Of a stretch of DNA of 64,000 nt, positions 19,550 through 25,233 are shown one piece after another. The notes under the pieces are model-generated. The model saw only the letters and a program-made list of their open reading frames with translations, had not been told where the DNA came from and ran no database searches. Both the position numbers and the translations under genes were made by a program. The stretch covers positions 186,001 to 250,000 of the forward strand of contig JAJFIS010000019.1 in the NCBI GenBank assembly GCA_021774735.1, given 5' to 3'. The stretch's first letter is position 1; each line of letters begins with the position of its first letter. Origin of the DNA: Alphaproteobacteria bacterium (GTDB taxonomy: Bacteria; Pseudomonadota; Alphaproteobacteria; Sphingomonadales; Kordiimonadaceae).

Positions 19550-20404
19550 ATGAAACAGAAAATGCTTATTAGTTTAATTGTTATGTCCTTGAGCACTGTG
19601 GCGCATAGTGCGTCGCAAGACAAGTCACCGGCGAGCCCATTTCTTGTGGATGAAGCTCGCTATCAAAATTGTTTGACCTTTGCTGCTCGCGCGCCTGACC
19701 GGGGCATTGCAATGGCGCTGGAGTGGAAAAGCGCTGGCGGGGGTATTCCTGCCAGGCACTGTGTTGCGGTTGGCCTTTTTACACTAGGGGAATATAGGGA
19801 AGCAGCAGCCCGTTTTGATGCCATTGCTGATGACGCCCGCATGGGGCGCGGTATGCCGTTGTCTGGCAGTAAGCGCATTACAGCTGGCTCGGCACTGGTG
19901 TCTGACTTGTTTTCGCAAGCAGCCAATGCATGGTTGTTGGCAGGTTATTTAACCGAAGCGGAAGAATCTAACAGTAAAGCGGTGGCGCTAGCGCCTAAGG
20001 GTTCTGATCAATATTATGAGCATATTATCGATAGGGCTCGTATTTCTGCGGCGGATGAAGATTATGCTTTGGCGCTTGAGGATTTGCGCTTGGTGCTGAG
20101 TGCCATGCCAGACCGCACAGACATTCAGGTGTTGGCGGCAACGGCCTCCCGGGCGCTTGGGGATGTGACAAGCGCTGCTAATTACTTGGAAAAAGCCTTG
20201 GCGCTTGAGCCGAGCAATCCGGTCGCACTTGTTGCTCGTGGGCGACTGTTTAGGCAAATTGGCTCCCCAAATTTGGCGCGGGCAGACTGGCTTAAGGTGA
20301 TGCTGGAAAATGCCGATACTGATATCGCCGATGAAGCAAGGGCAGCGCTTGAAGCTATGGAAATTGCGTTAATGGCGGATAAAGAGCCTAAAAACCAACC
20401 TTAG
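19550..20404 (+). CDS. Secreted TPR-repeat protein
   Basis: Predicted periplasmic protein of 284 residues. It has an N-terminal signal peptide (hydrophobic 5-19, cleaving after AHSA) and several tetratricopeptide repeats in the second half (for example YALALEDLRLVLSAMPDR and AANYLEKALALEPSNP, near 175-230). Two cysteines (near 40 and 66) could bridge. TPR proteins usually hold partner proteins; none is identified. The 3' end overlaps the convergent Mur ligase gene by 17 bases. A GC-rich inverted repeat (TGCCGC/GCGGCA, 19522-19539) lies directly before the start. Confidence 0.72.
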   Translation: MKQKMLISLIVMSLSTVAHSASQDKSPASPFLVDEARYQNCLTFAARAPDRGIAMALEWKSAGGGIPARHCVAVGLFTLGEYREAAARFDAIADDARMGRGMPLSGSKRITAGSALVSDLFSQAANAWLLAGYLTEAEESNSKAVALAPKGSDQYYEHIIDRARISAADEDYALALEDLRLVLSAMPDRTDIQVLAATASRALGDVTSAANYLEKALALEPSNPVALVARGRLFRQIGSPNLARADWLKVMLENADTDIADEARAALEAMEIALMADKEPKNQP

Positions 20405-22085
20405 CTTCATATAAGTCCGGCAGATTATTTTCAAATAATACAGCGTCTTTTATATCAACATTATCCTGCACCCAGGCTTCAGCCTCGGCTTGGGTATTAA
20501 AGGACATGACCGAAGCATGGCCGTCATTTGTGCGCTGGGCTTCGGCTAAAAATGTTGGGATGCGTTCGGGTGTGACGATCAAAATAATGTCTGCATGTTG
20601 GGTCGCGGCTGCCCCAAGCTTTGCGTGTTCGCGCTCATGTTCGCTGCCAAGCTCGACCATGCCGGGGGTGACCAATATACGCCGTCCGCCGGGCTTTACC
20701 AGCACGTCCAGCACCTGCAGCGCTGCGATAAAGCCTTCTGGGTTGCTGTTATAAGCGTCATTGATAACCGCTGGTTCATGGTTACCAAAGCTGACCTCCG
20801 CCCGGTGGCGAATTTGGCCCATGGTGCGCATGGACCCACGAATAACCGACCAAGGCAGCCCAACCATCCGCGCAGCCATAACGGCGAGCGTAATATTATC
20901 CGCCTGGTGGATGCCATATAGCGGTGCTTTCAGCTCATATGTTTCACCGGCCTCACTTAAGGTAAGCGTTAAGCCTCCTGCGGTCATCTCCACATTGTCG
21001 AGCGTGATGTCTTGTCCCGTTAAGCGGTAGTTGCCCGGTGTTTTGGCTATGCGGTCAGCCAGCAGTTCGGCCTTGATGCCGTTTGTTGATACTGCGACCA
21101 TGCCACTGCGTTTAAAAACTGCTTCCGCAAGCTCAAATTTAGCGCGCGCAACGGTCTCCAGTGATTTAAAGCGTTCATAGTGTGCCGCACCAACTGCGGT
21201 TATAAGGCCATAATCTGGCGGCGCAAGCGCACAAAGGCGCTCGATAGAACCGGGGCCATAAGCGCCCATTTCCACAATGAAATAGGCGTGATCAGCGGTA
21301 AGACTTTCGCGGATAACCCGGGTTATGCCCATATCGGTATTTACACTGCCCGGGGTCGCCAATGTTGGCTTAGCGGCAGATAAGATATGGTTGAGGATAT
21401 GCTTGGTGCTAGTTTTACCAAAAGAACCGGTGATAGCGATAATGGTGGGGTTTAGGGTCGCTAATTTTTTGATAGCTTCTGCGCGAAAGCCAGCTTTGAT
21501 GCGCTCTTCAAAGGGTTCTAATATTTTGTTCGCTAGCGTCAGCAGAAAGGGCAGGGCTTGCACAAATAAAAGCAAAAGACCAATAAAGGTGGGAAGCCGC
21601 CAGTCATAACTTTCTACCGGGCTGGTGAATATATCCCAGCTTAAATCAAGACTAAGCCGTAGACCATTATCGGCCATCATTGCGGTGGTAAGGATGAGCG
21701 CTGTTGCAACCAATGTAAGGGTGATATAAACCCAGAAAATACGGCTCGCCCGCATGGTCATCACCAGCGGTTTCTTACTATTTTGCAGAATGCGCTGGCT
21801 CAGGATTATGCCGTGGATGAAGCCAACGAGCACCAAGGGCACGGATAGGGAAACAAGCTCAGCCATGACCCCTTGTTGTGCTAATATTGCCAGCAAGCCC
21901 GCGAGCAACAACCAAATACTGGTCCGGCGATCTAGTGCCCCTTGGGCCACAGCCCACGCATAAAAGCGGTGGCTGTCATACTCCTCTTGCTGGTAAAACA
22001 TCAGCAGCGCTTTGCCTCGGACAAAGGCAAGTACTAGGGATAAAAGCAGAGTGAGCAATGCGGTTGGCAGGATAAAGGGGATCAT
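20388..22085 (-). CDS. Membrane-fused MurF-like Mur ligase
   Basis: Mur ligase family protein of 565 residues. Unlike soluble MurF (about 450), it carries an N-terminal membrane part of about five hydrophobic segments (about 5-200). The ATP-binding motif ITGSFGKTSTK (near 220), the central domain with EMGAYGPGSIERL, and NDAYNSNPEG (near 450, equivalent to the MurF signature) show a complete amide ligase of the tripeptide/D-Ala-D-Ala adding type. Its start overlaps the stop of an alpha/beta hydrolase gene, and a Ddl gene precedes that, so the operon encodes a dipeptide maker and a dipeptide-adding enzyme away from the usual mur-fts cluster. I infer a dedicated, membrane-located second MurF/Ddl pathway. 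Acceptor unknown. Confidence 0.82.
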   Translation of the reverse strand: MIPFILPTALLTLLLSLVLAFVRGKALLMFYQQEEYDSHRFYAWAVAQGALDRRTSIWLLLAGLLAILAQQGVMAELVSLSVPLVLVGFIHGIILSQRILQNSKKPLVMTMRASRIFWVYITLTLVATALILTTAMMADNGLRLSLDLSWDIFTSPVESYDWRLPTFIGLLLLFVQALPFLLTLANKILEPFEERIKAGFRAEAIKKLATLNPTIIAITGSFGKTSTKHILNHILSAAKPTLATPGSVNTDMGITRVIRESLTADHAYFIVEMGAYGPGSIERLCALAPPDYGLITAVGAAHYERFKSLETVARAKFELAEAVFKRSGMVAVSTNGIKAELLADRIAKTPGNYRLTGQDITLDNVEMTAGGLTLTLSEAGETYELKAPLYGIHQADNITLAVMAARMVGLPWSVIRGSMRTMGQIRHRAEVSFGNHEPAVINDAYNSNPEGFIAALQVLDVLVKPGGRRILVTPGMVELGSEHEREHAKLGAAATQHADIILIVTPERIPTFLAEAQRTNDGHASVMSFNTQAEAEAWVQDNVDIKDAVLFENNLPDLYEAKVGF

Positions 22086-22837
22086 AAGACCTCTTTCAAG
22101 AAAGGTTTTATCTGCGCTTCAAGCTGGTGGGCCCCTCGGCTGAGAATATCCAGATGGCCGAAGCCTTCAAGCTCAACATATTGGCTATTTCTGATCAGGG
22201 CTGCATATTTCTGGCCAATCTCAGGGGGTGTTTCGCTGTCTTCACTACCATAGAGCAATAATGTGGGGCAATTTGTTGCCGCCGCTTCAGCTATGAGGTT
22301 TTCAGTTACAACACTCACAAAAGTATCGCGCATGTCTCCTGCATTACGGTAATCGGCACTGCCAAAGCGATGGGTATAGGCTTGCCTGAAAGAGGTTCTG
22401 AGTATTTTATCCGAAAGTCGTGCCAGACGACCTAATATAATTAAGCTGCTAGCGCGCAGATTCCACATTTGACTGCGATCGCGCTTCAACCCTGCACCAC
22501 CGATCATTATGACCGCGCGCACCAGTGCCGGGTGTCTTGCCGCCATTTGTACCGAGACCCGACAGCCAAAACTGTGACCAATTAAAATCACCGGACCTTT
22601 TAAGGTTAGGTTTTGGCGTTTTAAATGTTTGGCTAGAGCATCGGCATAATCGGCAGTACCTGCGCCTTTATGTAACATCGGCGTTTGGCCAAAGCCCGGC
22701 AGATCAAACAATACATGACGGCCAAAGCGCTTCAACAATTTTGCGAGCGGCACAAGCGCATGGTGGTCTTGGCCCCAACCATGAAGCCAGATAAAAACCG
22801 GCTGCCCGGCGGGGTCTCCTATATCACTTCTATGCAC
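22082..22837 (-). CDS. Alpha/beta hydrolase
   Basis: Alpha/beta-hydrolase fold protein of 251 residues. The oxyanion region is WLHGWGQDHHA (near 20), the nucleophile elbow is GHSFGCR (serine near 89), the acid is probably the aspartate in LLYGSEDSETPP (near 200), and the histidine lies in GFGHLDI (near 228), completing the triad. No signal peptide is seen. The start is a GTG at 22837, eight bases after the ddl stop, and the stop overlaps the MurF-like start, so the three genes are one operon. Substrate is unknown; an ester or amide linked to cell-wall precursors is suggested only by context. Confidence 0.82.
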   Translation of the reverse strand: MHRSDIGDPAGQPVFIWLHGWGQDHHALVPLAKLLKRFGRHVLFDLPGFGQTPMLHKGAGTADYADALAKHLKRQNLTLKGPVILIGHSFGCRVSVQMAARHPALVRAVIMIGGAGLKRDRSQMWNLRASSLIILGRLARLSDKILRTSFRQAYTHRFGSADYRNAGDMRDTFVSVVTENLIAEAAATNCPTLLLYGSEDSETPPEIGQKYAALIRNSQYVELEGFGHLDILSRGAHQLEAQIKPFLKEVL

Positions 22838-22845
22838 GCTTATCC

Positions 22846-24066
22846 TTATCCGGCTTGAAAGATTGTGGCGCCCCCAGCGGCAGCACCGGTGCTGCCAAGG
22901 CGGGCCTTTGACAAGCGAAAGCCTTCGTCAATCATATGGCTAGTGAGCTCAACAAAGCTCATGGGATTGGGCGCATCTTGCCATAAGAAATAAGCAAAAC
23001 TGCCGGGAATGGTGTTGACCTCATTAAACCAGACCTCGCCGCTTTTACTGTCACAGAGGAAATCAATCCGCACGGAGCCAGCAAGCGCTAACATGTCAAA
23101 AATTTTGGCGGCAGTGGTGCGAATGAATGTTTCTTGGGCCACTGTCATGCCATCGGGGTTAATCACTCGGTTGAGGCTTACCATACCTTCGCTGGGGGCA
23201 TCCAACTTGGGGCTGCCAGCTTTGCTACCCGCTAAATATTTGCCTTTAAAGTCCAAAAGGTCTGCCTCGCGCTCTGGCTGTTCAATGGCCGATGTTTCTG
23301 CTTTGCCATCCTCGCCCATGCGGACGGCGATATTATATTCACTTAAATTATCCACAAAAGGTTCAATGATGGCTTGATTATCGAGGCGAAACACAGCCAG
23401 TAATGCGGCGATCATTTCATCCATATCACCCGCTCTAGAAACGCCGACGCTGCTGCCGAGATTCACGGGCTTAACGATATAAGGAAAGCTGGAATTTGGC
23501 ATAGCTTCTTTCAACATCTTAGCCACATTTTTCTCATCCAGAAAAACGCCTTCAATAGGGCGGTCAATGAGCAGGTCATCCAGCACATTAATGTCCGCCG
23601 CCCGGGCAGTTTGCTTGGTGAAAGCTTTGTCCATGGTTACCGCTGCACCCAGCAGTCTGCAGCCAGTGTAGGGAATGCGGGCAAACTCAAGCAAGCCTTG
23701 CAGGGTGCCATCCTCACCGTTGCTGCCATGAATGGCGGGCACCATGATGTCAAAGGGGATAGTGTCTATTTTTTCGCCGAGTAGTTTTTTGCTGCGGCTT
23801 AAAAGCTGTGGTTGGGCCATGTTGACAGCATTTAAGTCTAAATTCACCGCAGTTAGGTCAGCGCTTTGGCCGTTTTCTACCGGATATAAACTGCGTTTTT
23901 TAAGGGCAGAGCCTGTCCACCACTGCCCTAGAGGGTCAATGTAAATCGGCAGGCCAGTGAAACGGTTGCTATCAAGGGCATCAAGAAATTGAAGGCCGGT
24001 TAAAATACTAACGTCATGTTCGACGCTTCGCCCTCCAAAAATAACAGCGACAATTTTCTTGTTCAC
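22846..24066 (-). CDS. ddl: D-alanine--D-alanine ligase
   Basis: ATP-grasp ligase of about 406 residues that joins two D-alanines. The N-terminus has AVIFGGRSVEHDVS, which holds the GG and EHDVS motifs of Ddl, and then HGSNGEDGTLQG, VKPVNLGSSVGVSR, and the C-terminal FNEVNTIPGS metal-binding segment. The omega-loop reads GKY, as in D-Ala-D-Ala ligases, not the histidine form of VanA-type D-Ala-D-Lac ligases. The protein is 40-100 residues longer than common Ddl enzymes, with an expanded middle region. The GTG at 24066 has AGGA six bases upstream; a GTG at 24087 is the alternative start. It is the first gene of the ddl/hydrolase/MurF-like operon. Confidence 0.88.
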   Translation of the reverse strand: MNKKIVAVIFGGRSVEHDVSILTGLQFLDALDSNRFTGLPIYIDPLGQWWTGSALKKRSLYPVENGQSADLTAVNLDLNAVNMAQPQLLSRSKKLLGEKIDTIPFDIMVPAIHGSNGEDGTLQGLLEFARIPYTGCRLLGAAVTMDKAFTKQTARAADINVLDDLLIDRPIEGVFLDEKNVAKMLKEAMPNSSFPYIVKPVNLGSSVGVSRAGDMDEMIAALLAVFRLDNQAIIEPFVDNLSEYNIAVRMGEDGKAETSAIEQPEREADLLDFKGKYLAGSKAGSPKLDAPSEGMVSLNRVINPDGMTVAQETFIRTTAAKIFDMLALAGSVRIDFLCDSKSGEVWFNEVNTIPGSFAYFLWQDAPNPMSFVELTSHMIDEGFRLSKARLGSTGAAAGGATIFQAG

Positions 24067-24306
24067 AGCGGGTCCTAGCCTTATCACCTCAGGGATTATT
24101 GAAAGTATAATGCCCTTGTTTCTTCTGTCTTATCTAAGCTGAGCGGATTGTTAAAGCCCATTTTCATTCTTTTTAGCGCGAAAAGCCACTTAAGCCAATA
24201 AGCATGGCATGATAATGGCAGAAATCACAAAAGCGTGGTTGCCGTGGACAGTTAGCCCCTCGCACCGTAAGCTGGTTCTCAATAGATAGAAAATTGGGAG
24301 AATGAA

Positions 24307-25233
24307 ATGGTATCAACCTTTAAATCTAATAGAAAAGCTACAGCATGCCTAGCTTTAGCCGCAGGCTTGTTCTTTTCATCAAATACATTGCTGCTAGCAC
24401 AAGACGGTGACCGTTTTGCCAAGGTGAAAATAACCACCGAGAAGGTCAGCGATAATCTTTATGTATTATTTGGTGCTGGCGGTAATATCGGTGTCTCGGT
24501 TGGCGAGGATGGTATTTATCTTATCGATGACCAATACGCACCGCTGTCAGGGCGCATTTTAGATGCCCTAAAAATACTAAGTGATCAGTCCTTGCGCTAT
24601 GTTATCAGCACCCACTGGCATGGGGACCATACGGGCGGCAACGAAAACATGGCACAGGCTGGCGGGCAAATCATTGCTCACGACAATGTGCGCATCCGCA
24701 TGAGGGCGGGAAGTTACATCAAGGCATTTGATATGCAAGTTGCTCCCGCAAAGCCAGAAGCTCTTGCTGTAATAACCTATAGTGATGCCATGTCCTTGCA
24801 TTTAAACGGCGAGGAAGCCCGCATAAAGCATGTGGAAAATTCCCATACCGACGGCGACAGCATGGTTTGGTTCAGAGCTAGCAATGTTGTTTATATGGGT
24901 GATACTTTCTTTAACCTGCGTTACCCCTTAATTGACCTTAGCTCAGGTGGCTCGGTGGACGGGGTTATAAATGTGGCGACCGCAACCCTGAGCCAGATTG
25001 ACGATCAAACCATCATCGTTCCGGGTCATGGCCCTGTTACCAACAAAGCTGGCTTAAAGGCATATCGCGATATGCTGGTAACCTTGCAGGAGCGGGTGTC
25101 GGCGCTTAAGACTACTGGAAAAACCAAGGATGCGGTGATTGCTGCCAACCCATCAGTTGACTTTGATGATGTGTGGAGCACCAATGATAGCTGGCGCGAT
25201 CTTTTTATAGGTATTATTTATGATGACGTCTAG
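24307..25233 (+). CDS. Secreted metallo-beta-lactamase-fold hydrolase
   Basis: MBL-fold enzyme of 308 residues with a signal peptide (hydrophobic 11-31, ending in LLAQ). All metal ligands are visible: the THWHGDHTGG motif (near 102), the third histidine in ENSHTDGDS (near 180), the aspartate in YMGDTFF, and the last histidine in PGHGP (near 238). This matches the two-zinc site of the superfamily. The family spans beta-lactamases, SoxH/QuiP-type cyclase-like proteins and quinone-related hydrolases, and this protein looks closest to the latter broad group. It is divergent from the ddl operon and ends before a strong bidirectional terminator. Confidence 0.86.
   Translation: MVSTFKSNRKATACLALAAGLFFSSNTLLLAQDGDRFAKVKITTEKVSDNLYVLFGAGGNIGVSVGEDGIYLIDDQYAPLSGRILDALKILSDQSLRYVISTHWHGDHTGGNENMAQAGGQIIAHDNVRIRMRAGSYIKAFDMQVAPAKPEALAVITYSDAMSLHLNGEEARIKHVENSHTDGDSMVWFRASNVVYMGDTFFNLRYPLIDLSSGGSVDGVINVATATLSQIDDQTIIVPGHGPVTNKAGLKAYRDMLVTLQERVSALKTTGKTKDAVIAANPSVDFDDVWSTNDSWRDLFIGIIYDDV

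Follow-up and report, generated by a model that had tools for sequence, protein, structure and literature searches.

Is a MurF-type ligase that is built into the membrane, and encoded beside a D-alanine--D-alanine ligase (Ddl), part of a second dipeptide-ligation pathway, or does it carry out the step on which peptidoglycan synthesis depends? The question is raised by a three-gene operon from an alphaproteobacterium of the family Kordiimonadaceae (assembly GCA_021774735.1, contig JAJFIS010000019.1), located in a window of 64,000 nucleotides (positions 186,001 to 250,000 of the contig), which is the whole stretch of DNA analyzed and the frame for the coordinates below. The operon encodes the Ddl, an alpha/beta hydrolase and the membrane-anchored MurF-type ligase, here called TM-MurF. 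An earlier interpretation made from the letters alone (the sequence-only reading) had favored a second pathway. We conclude, with a probability of roughly 0.8, that the operon stands in, as a self-contained unit, for ddlB and murF of the division and cell wall (dcw) cluster. This conclusion draws on co-occurrence and gene decay: the operon Ddl is the only one in the genome, the dcw murF is degenerate, murE-mraY junctions and murF remnants are found in other genomes, the presence of TM-MurF is associated with the loss of MurF, and the trio is conserved. The features of the operon are as follows.

22846..24087, minus strand: ddl, D-alanine--D-alanine ligase of 413 amino acids (aa), sole Ddl of the genome; omega-loop K283-Y284 at ~23236-23241
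22082..22837, minus strand: alpha/beta hydrolase, 251 aa, GTG start; triad S89/D200/H228; conserved lid motif GSxDY
20388..22085, minus strand: TM-MurF, membrane-anchored MurF-type ligase, 565 aa
21453..22085, minus strand: membrane domain of TM-MurF, residues 1-211; five predicted helices in place of the uridine diphosphate (UDP)-binding N domain; conserved QQEEYD and KKxLVxTxRA
20433..21434, minus strand: ligase part of TM-MurF (Mur middle and C domains, residues 218-551), with the P-loop TGSFGKT (21411-21431) and the C-terminal motif ENxLPDLYE

All three open reading frames (ORFs) lie on the minus strand, with a gap of 8 nt between the hydrolase gene and ddl and an overlap of 4 nt between the TM-MurF and hydrolase genes, which bears out the tightly packed operon described in the sequence-only reading.

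Housekeeping Ddl and degenerate dcw MurF in this genome

The genome measures 2.78 Mb and is listed as 100% complete; genome-wide statements rest on searches. Both a protein search and a search with the Ddl N-domain family return the operon Ddl as the only match, and it is therefore the housekeeping Ddl. A single Ddl is also the rule elsewhere: it is found in 19 of the 21 cassette genomes tested, the other 2 having two. The dcw cluster, with gene names assigned by homology, is located on contig C20 and comprises mraZ, rsmH, ftsI, murE, murF, mraY, murD, ftsW, murG, murC, murB, ftsQ, ftsA and ftsZ, without ddlB between murB and ftsQ. The dcw murF (L012:5559-6989) is full length, scores 258 bits against a family cut-off of 288.6, and forms a long branch in the tree. 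Compared with 14 normal MurFs, its product no longer matches at 17 of 54 near-invariant positions, one of them a glutamate that binds Mg2+ in Mur ligases. Because this glutamate is now Lys162, the dcw MurF appears to be inactive or nearly so, and is likely a pseudoenzyme.

Loss of normal MurF alongside TM-MurF

We analyzed an evenly drawn sample of 142 alphaproteobacterial genomes, defining a normal MurF as a match over the curated murF cut-off. TM-MurF is present in 11 of these genomes. Normal MurF is found in 118 of the 131 genomes without TM-MurF and in one of the 11 genomes with it (G115; Fisher p=1.7e-8, genomes treated as independent). Direct inspection showed that murE runs directly into mraY, without a murF, in five genomes (G117, G058, G038, G069 and G137, the contig of the last being partial). 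The first four have ftsQ next after murB, ddlB being absent there, and ftsI, ftsW, murG, murC and murB are kept. In G050 and G021 MurE is fused to a truncated MurF remnant without P-loop and C domain, and a truncated murF remnant is also present in G142. The adjacency of murE and mraY extends to Blastochloris and several metagenome-assembled genomes (MAGs). Near relatives of the genome under study display graded decay of murF: the gene is intact in Kordiimonas, full length and degenerate in this genome, and reduced to a 332-aa remnant in MAG M2405.

Several individual loci show further states of these genes. Truncated pseudo-MurFs with a recognizable N domain, lacking a working P-loop or C domain, are found at L107:10154-12565, L103:397-2670 and L196:2590-3588; all are in open frame, two of them fused to MurE, and such genes may have a non-catalytic role or reflect recent decay. 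Pseudooceanicola nanhaiensis has a full-length, strongly degenerate dcw MurF (L201:2597-4078) and a TM-MurF cassette elsewhere in the genome. The Ddl of the G050 MAG is split in two frames (L065:1474-2690), through either real decay or sequencing error.

The pattern is not restricted to alphaproteobacteria. Normal MurF is found in none of the 6 Bacteroidales genomes with TM-MurF, as against 72 of the 73 without it (p=2.5e-8); a frame the size of a MurF-Alr fusion is kept in 3 of the 6. Among 41 Tissierellales genomes, TM-MurF is unaccompanied by a MurF over the cut-off in 23 and accompanied by one in 12 (G164, G254 and G269, for example), 6 have the normal enzyme only, and none has neither. 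A specialized role of TM-MurF beside normal synthesis is possible in those with both. In Cyanophyceae TM-MurF occurs in one of 60 genomes (Chamaesiphon), which is also the only one without a canonical MurF match. TM-MurF-only isolates include Blastochloris sulfoviridis, Actibacterium atlanticum, Chamaesiphon polymorphus, Peptoniphilus stercorisuis and Gracilimonas amylolytica. At least 80 TM-MurF loci are present in GTDB species genomes. Going by record titles, which can be wrong for MAGs, they belong to Pseudomonadota, Bacteroidota, Bacillota, Chloroflexota, Cyanobacteriota, Melainabacteria, Chlamydiota, Poribacteria, Omnitrophota, Bdellovibrionota, Balneolota and Acidobacteriota. Among the matches listed, homologous loci with enough flank have a linked hydrolase in 68 of 74 cases and a linked ddl in 58 of 62, so the linkage of the trio is not a matter of chance. 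The order hydrolase-ligase-ddl is the commonest, and ddl is divergent in many alphaproteobacteria. The search for the same three genes in other genomes, proposed in the sequence-only reading, thus finds the trio conserved across phyla, in variable order.

Some observations weigh against a replacement. Normal MurF stands alongside TM-MurF in G115, in Kordiimonas and in 12 of the 41 Tissierellales, where TM-MurF could have an extra or different role, and three loci (L139, L173 and L193) are without the neighbor genes. Many of the genomes are MAGs, in which single absences can be assembly gaps, and the co-occurrence counts treat genomes as independent, with no phylogenetic correction. The need for a hydrolase is also left unexplained by the replacement model.

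A MurF-type ligase with a membrane domain

Pfam searches identify Mur_ligase_M and Mur_ligase_C in TM-MurF, and do not find the N-terminal Mur_ligase domain (PF01225); this UDP-binding domain is absent from every aligned homologue. The closest NCBIfam model is murF (TIGR01143), matched at 217 bits against the cut-off of 288.6 and only over profile positions 65-403, and seven scored homologues of the TM type reach 204 to 247 bits. The P-loop TGSxGK and residues E272, H302 and K316 are invariant in an alignment of 91 homologues. An AlphaFold2 model built from 56 aligned sequences (mean pLDDT 93) places membrane helices at residues 2-33, 54-70, 75-102, 111-137 and 163-211, ahead of the Mur domains, and the five helices are also supported by hydropathy. 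The membrane domain is joined at the boundary of the N and middle domains, with a conserved basic loop (K104, R112, R115) predicted on the cytoplasmic side. Because the domains that use ATP must be cytoplasmic, QQEEYD and KKxLVxTxRA, both conserved, would lie on the cytoplasmic face. In a fold search TM-MurF matches MurF and other Mur ligases, and its membrane domain returns no match. A quick tree, in which the MurF rows L032 and L039 were disregarded as probably wrong ORFs, recovers TM-MurF as one clade with a support of 100, separate from MurF.

TM-MurF therefore shares with MurF the middle and C domains, the P-loop and catalytic residues, the best match by sequence and fold, and the linkage to Ddl. 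It differs in the missing UDP-binding N domain, the five membrane helices, the separate clade, the position outside the dcw cluster, the score below the curated cut-off, and an ENDLPD motif at the C terminus where MurF has KGS. Taken together, these features lead us to file it as a new variant that probably works like MurF, rather than as a plain family member. The sequence-only reading had held that, were there no other murF or ddl in the genome, these would simply be the canonical enzymes. There is indeed no other ddl, and for murF the same is nearly true, but a separate clade without the UDP-binding domain is not the canonical ligase.

The operon Ddl consists of Dala_Dala_lig_N and Dala_Dala_lig_C (Pfam), and the Lys-Tyr pair of its omega loop, characteristic of the D-Ala-D-Ala type, is invariant in 75 homologues. 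The hydrolase contains Abhydrolase_1 (Pfam), and a fold search places it among esterases and lipases of a generic kind, its only matches (ABHD6, BioH and a bacterial membrane phospholipase A). Its triad is invariant in 80 homologues, which suggests that the enzyme is active. The descriptions given in the sequence-only reading hold for all three products: a Ddl with a D-Ala-D-Ala-type loop, a serine hydrolase with a full triad, and a membrane-located ligase with an intact P-loop and about five helices. Ddl makes D-Ala-D-Ala, and the middle and C domains of Mur ligases first generate an acyl phosphate, from which the peptide bond is made; the D-Ala-D-Ala chemistry also proposed there would follow from these families and their intact active sites.

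Acceptor of the dipeptide and rival explanations

In the replacement model, Ddl would supply D-Ala-D-Ala, and the membrane-held TM-MurF would activate the stem-peptide carboxylate with ATP and join the dipeptide to it, yielding the pentapeptide needed by transpeptidases. That the substrate is the stem tripeptide we infer from the replacement of murF. The acceptor could be lipid I or lipid II carrying the tripeptide, in which case MraY would act ahead of dipeptide addition. We lean slightly toward such a lipid-linked acceptor over UDP-MurNAc-tripeptide, because the UDP-binding domain has given way to a membrane domain whose cytoplasmic face is basic and conserved, and because MurT provides a precedent. 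MurT, of the MurT/GatD lipid II amidotransferase, is a Mur ligase without the UDP-binding domain that acts at the membrane on lipid-linked precursors (PMC6085368, PMC6113224). According to the Staphylococcus aureus structure paper, the pyrophosphate lies where the N domain meets the middle domain, which is the point at which the lipid would leave the membrane, and a UDP-binding domain would probably clash with the membrane (PMC6113224). The likeness lies in the shared lack of this domain, the lipid acceptor of TM-MurF being proposed by analogy. By contrast, MurT lacks membrane helices, and it amidates D-Glu and works with a glutaminase, whereas the partners of TM-MurF are a Ddl and a serine hydrolase; a Pfam search found no DUF1727-type MurT match in TM-MurF, and no GatD is present among the neighboring genes.

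A possible, if clearly less probable, alternative is that TM-MurF replaces MurF and still uses soluble UDP-MurNAc-tripeptide. Its helices would then serve only to keep it close to MraY and MurG, and binding of the substrate would fall to the middle and C domains or to a partner, for example the N domain of a retained pseudo-MurF. This agrees with the best match of the middle and C domains to MurF, in both sequence and fold, and with the open-frame pseudo-MurFs that keep a recognizable N domain in several genomes. However, the UDP-binding domain is missing from all aligned homologues, most of the inspected TM-MurF-only genomes have no pseudo-MurF at all, and MurT, which likewise lacks this domain, uses lipid I/II and no UDP precursor.

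The hydrolase is assigned to the pathway because of its linkage to the ligase and ddl. It might clear a dead-end or wrongly charged membrane-linked precursor, a role that we put forward as a doubtful guess. The full scheme for TM-MurF-only bacteria remains tentative and falls somewhat short of even odds: MraY would move phospho-MurNAc-tripeptide, TM-MurF would then add D-Ala-D-Ala to lipid I/II in a reversal of the textbook order, and a dedicated serine hydrolase would belong to the pathway.

The second pathway favored in the sequence-only reading, in which normal synthesis would continue and the dipeptide would be ligated to some acceptor outside the peptidoglycan stem, is improbable. It would accommodate the genomes where normal MurF and TM-MurF coexist and the two cassette genomes with a second Ddl. 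Against this, most cassette genomes of the alphaproteobacterial sample combine a sole Ddl with a decayed or missing murF, as the present genome does with its degenerate dcw copy, while ftsI and the remaining dcw cluster are kept, and the pattern recurs in other phyla. A van-like glycopeptide-resistance cassette, which would remake the stem-peptide end while the hydrolase destroys D-Ala-D-Ala, is suggested by the company of a Ddl-family ligase with a hydrolase and a MurF-like accessory gene and by VanG-type ligases among the relatives of the operon Ddl, but is highly improbable given the invariant Lys-Tyr loop of the D-Ala-D-Ala type, the usual status of this Ddl as the genome's only, housekeeping one, a hydrolase resembling esterases and lipases instead of the zinc dipeptidase VanX, and the lack of VanH, VanT, VanX and VanY among the genes neighboring the operon. 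Plasmid-borne murF relatives were considered and rejected: the two inspected are annotated ordinary MurFs beside a Ddl, one of them vanG-like by score, and the hydrolase is absent.

The poly-gamma-glutamate synthases CapB/PgsB are membrane-associated. Like TM-MurF, they are Mur-domain ligases serving an envelope polymer and distinct from MurC-F (PMC11915815), but the polymer is a different one and they have neither a Ddl nor a hydrolase as partner; the Pfam and NCBIfam matches of TM-MurF include no CapB/PgsB model. The 12 members named in a survey of Mur-domain proteins do not include a membrane MurF (PMC11915815). Searches of the open-access literature for a membrane MurF, MurF2, murFm or absent murF returned no description, with subscription papers and preprints mostly outside their reach, so a prior description is possible; the system is apparently undescribed, as the sequence-only reading had supposed.

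The addition of D-Ala-D-Ala is regarded as a soluble step of cell-wall synthesis that is fixed and nearly universal, and Ddl, MurF and MraY serve as drug targets. If the replacement is true, MurF has given way to a membrane enzyme in alphaproteobacteria, in some Bacteroidales, in many Tissierellales and in one cyanobacterium, which would alter pathway maps and annotations for many bacteria. It would also explain genomes seemingly without murF, allow a direct test of the order in which the lipid-linked steps occur, and implicate a conserved hydrolase in a core pathway.

The divergent metallo-beta-lactamase-fold gene reported next to the operon is present at 24307-25233 of the window, on the plus strand. 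We rejected it as a part of the system: it adjoins the trio in two of the three close relatives checked (L114 and L115), and not in the third (L116). Its product is apparently secreted and weakly matches SoxH-related hydrolases of the pyrroloquinoline quinone (PQQ) relay type.

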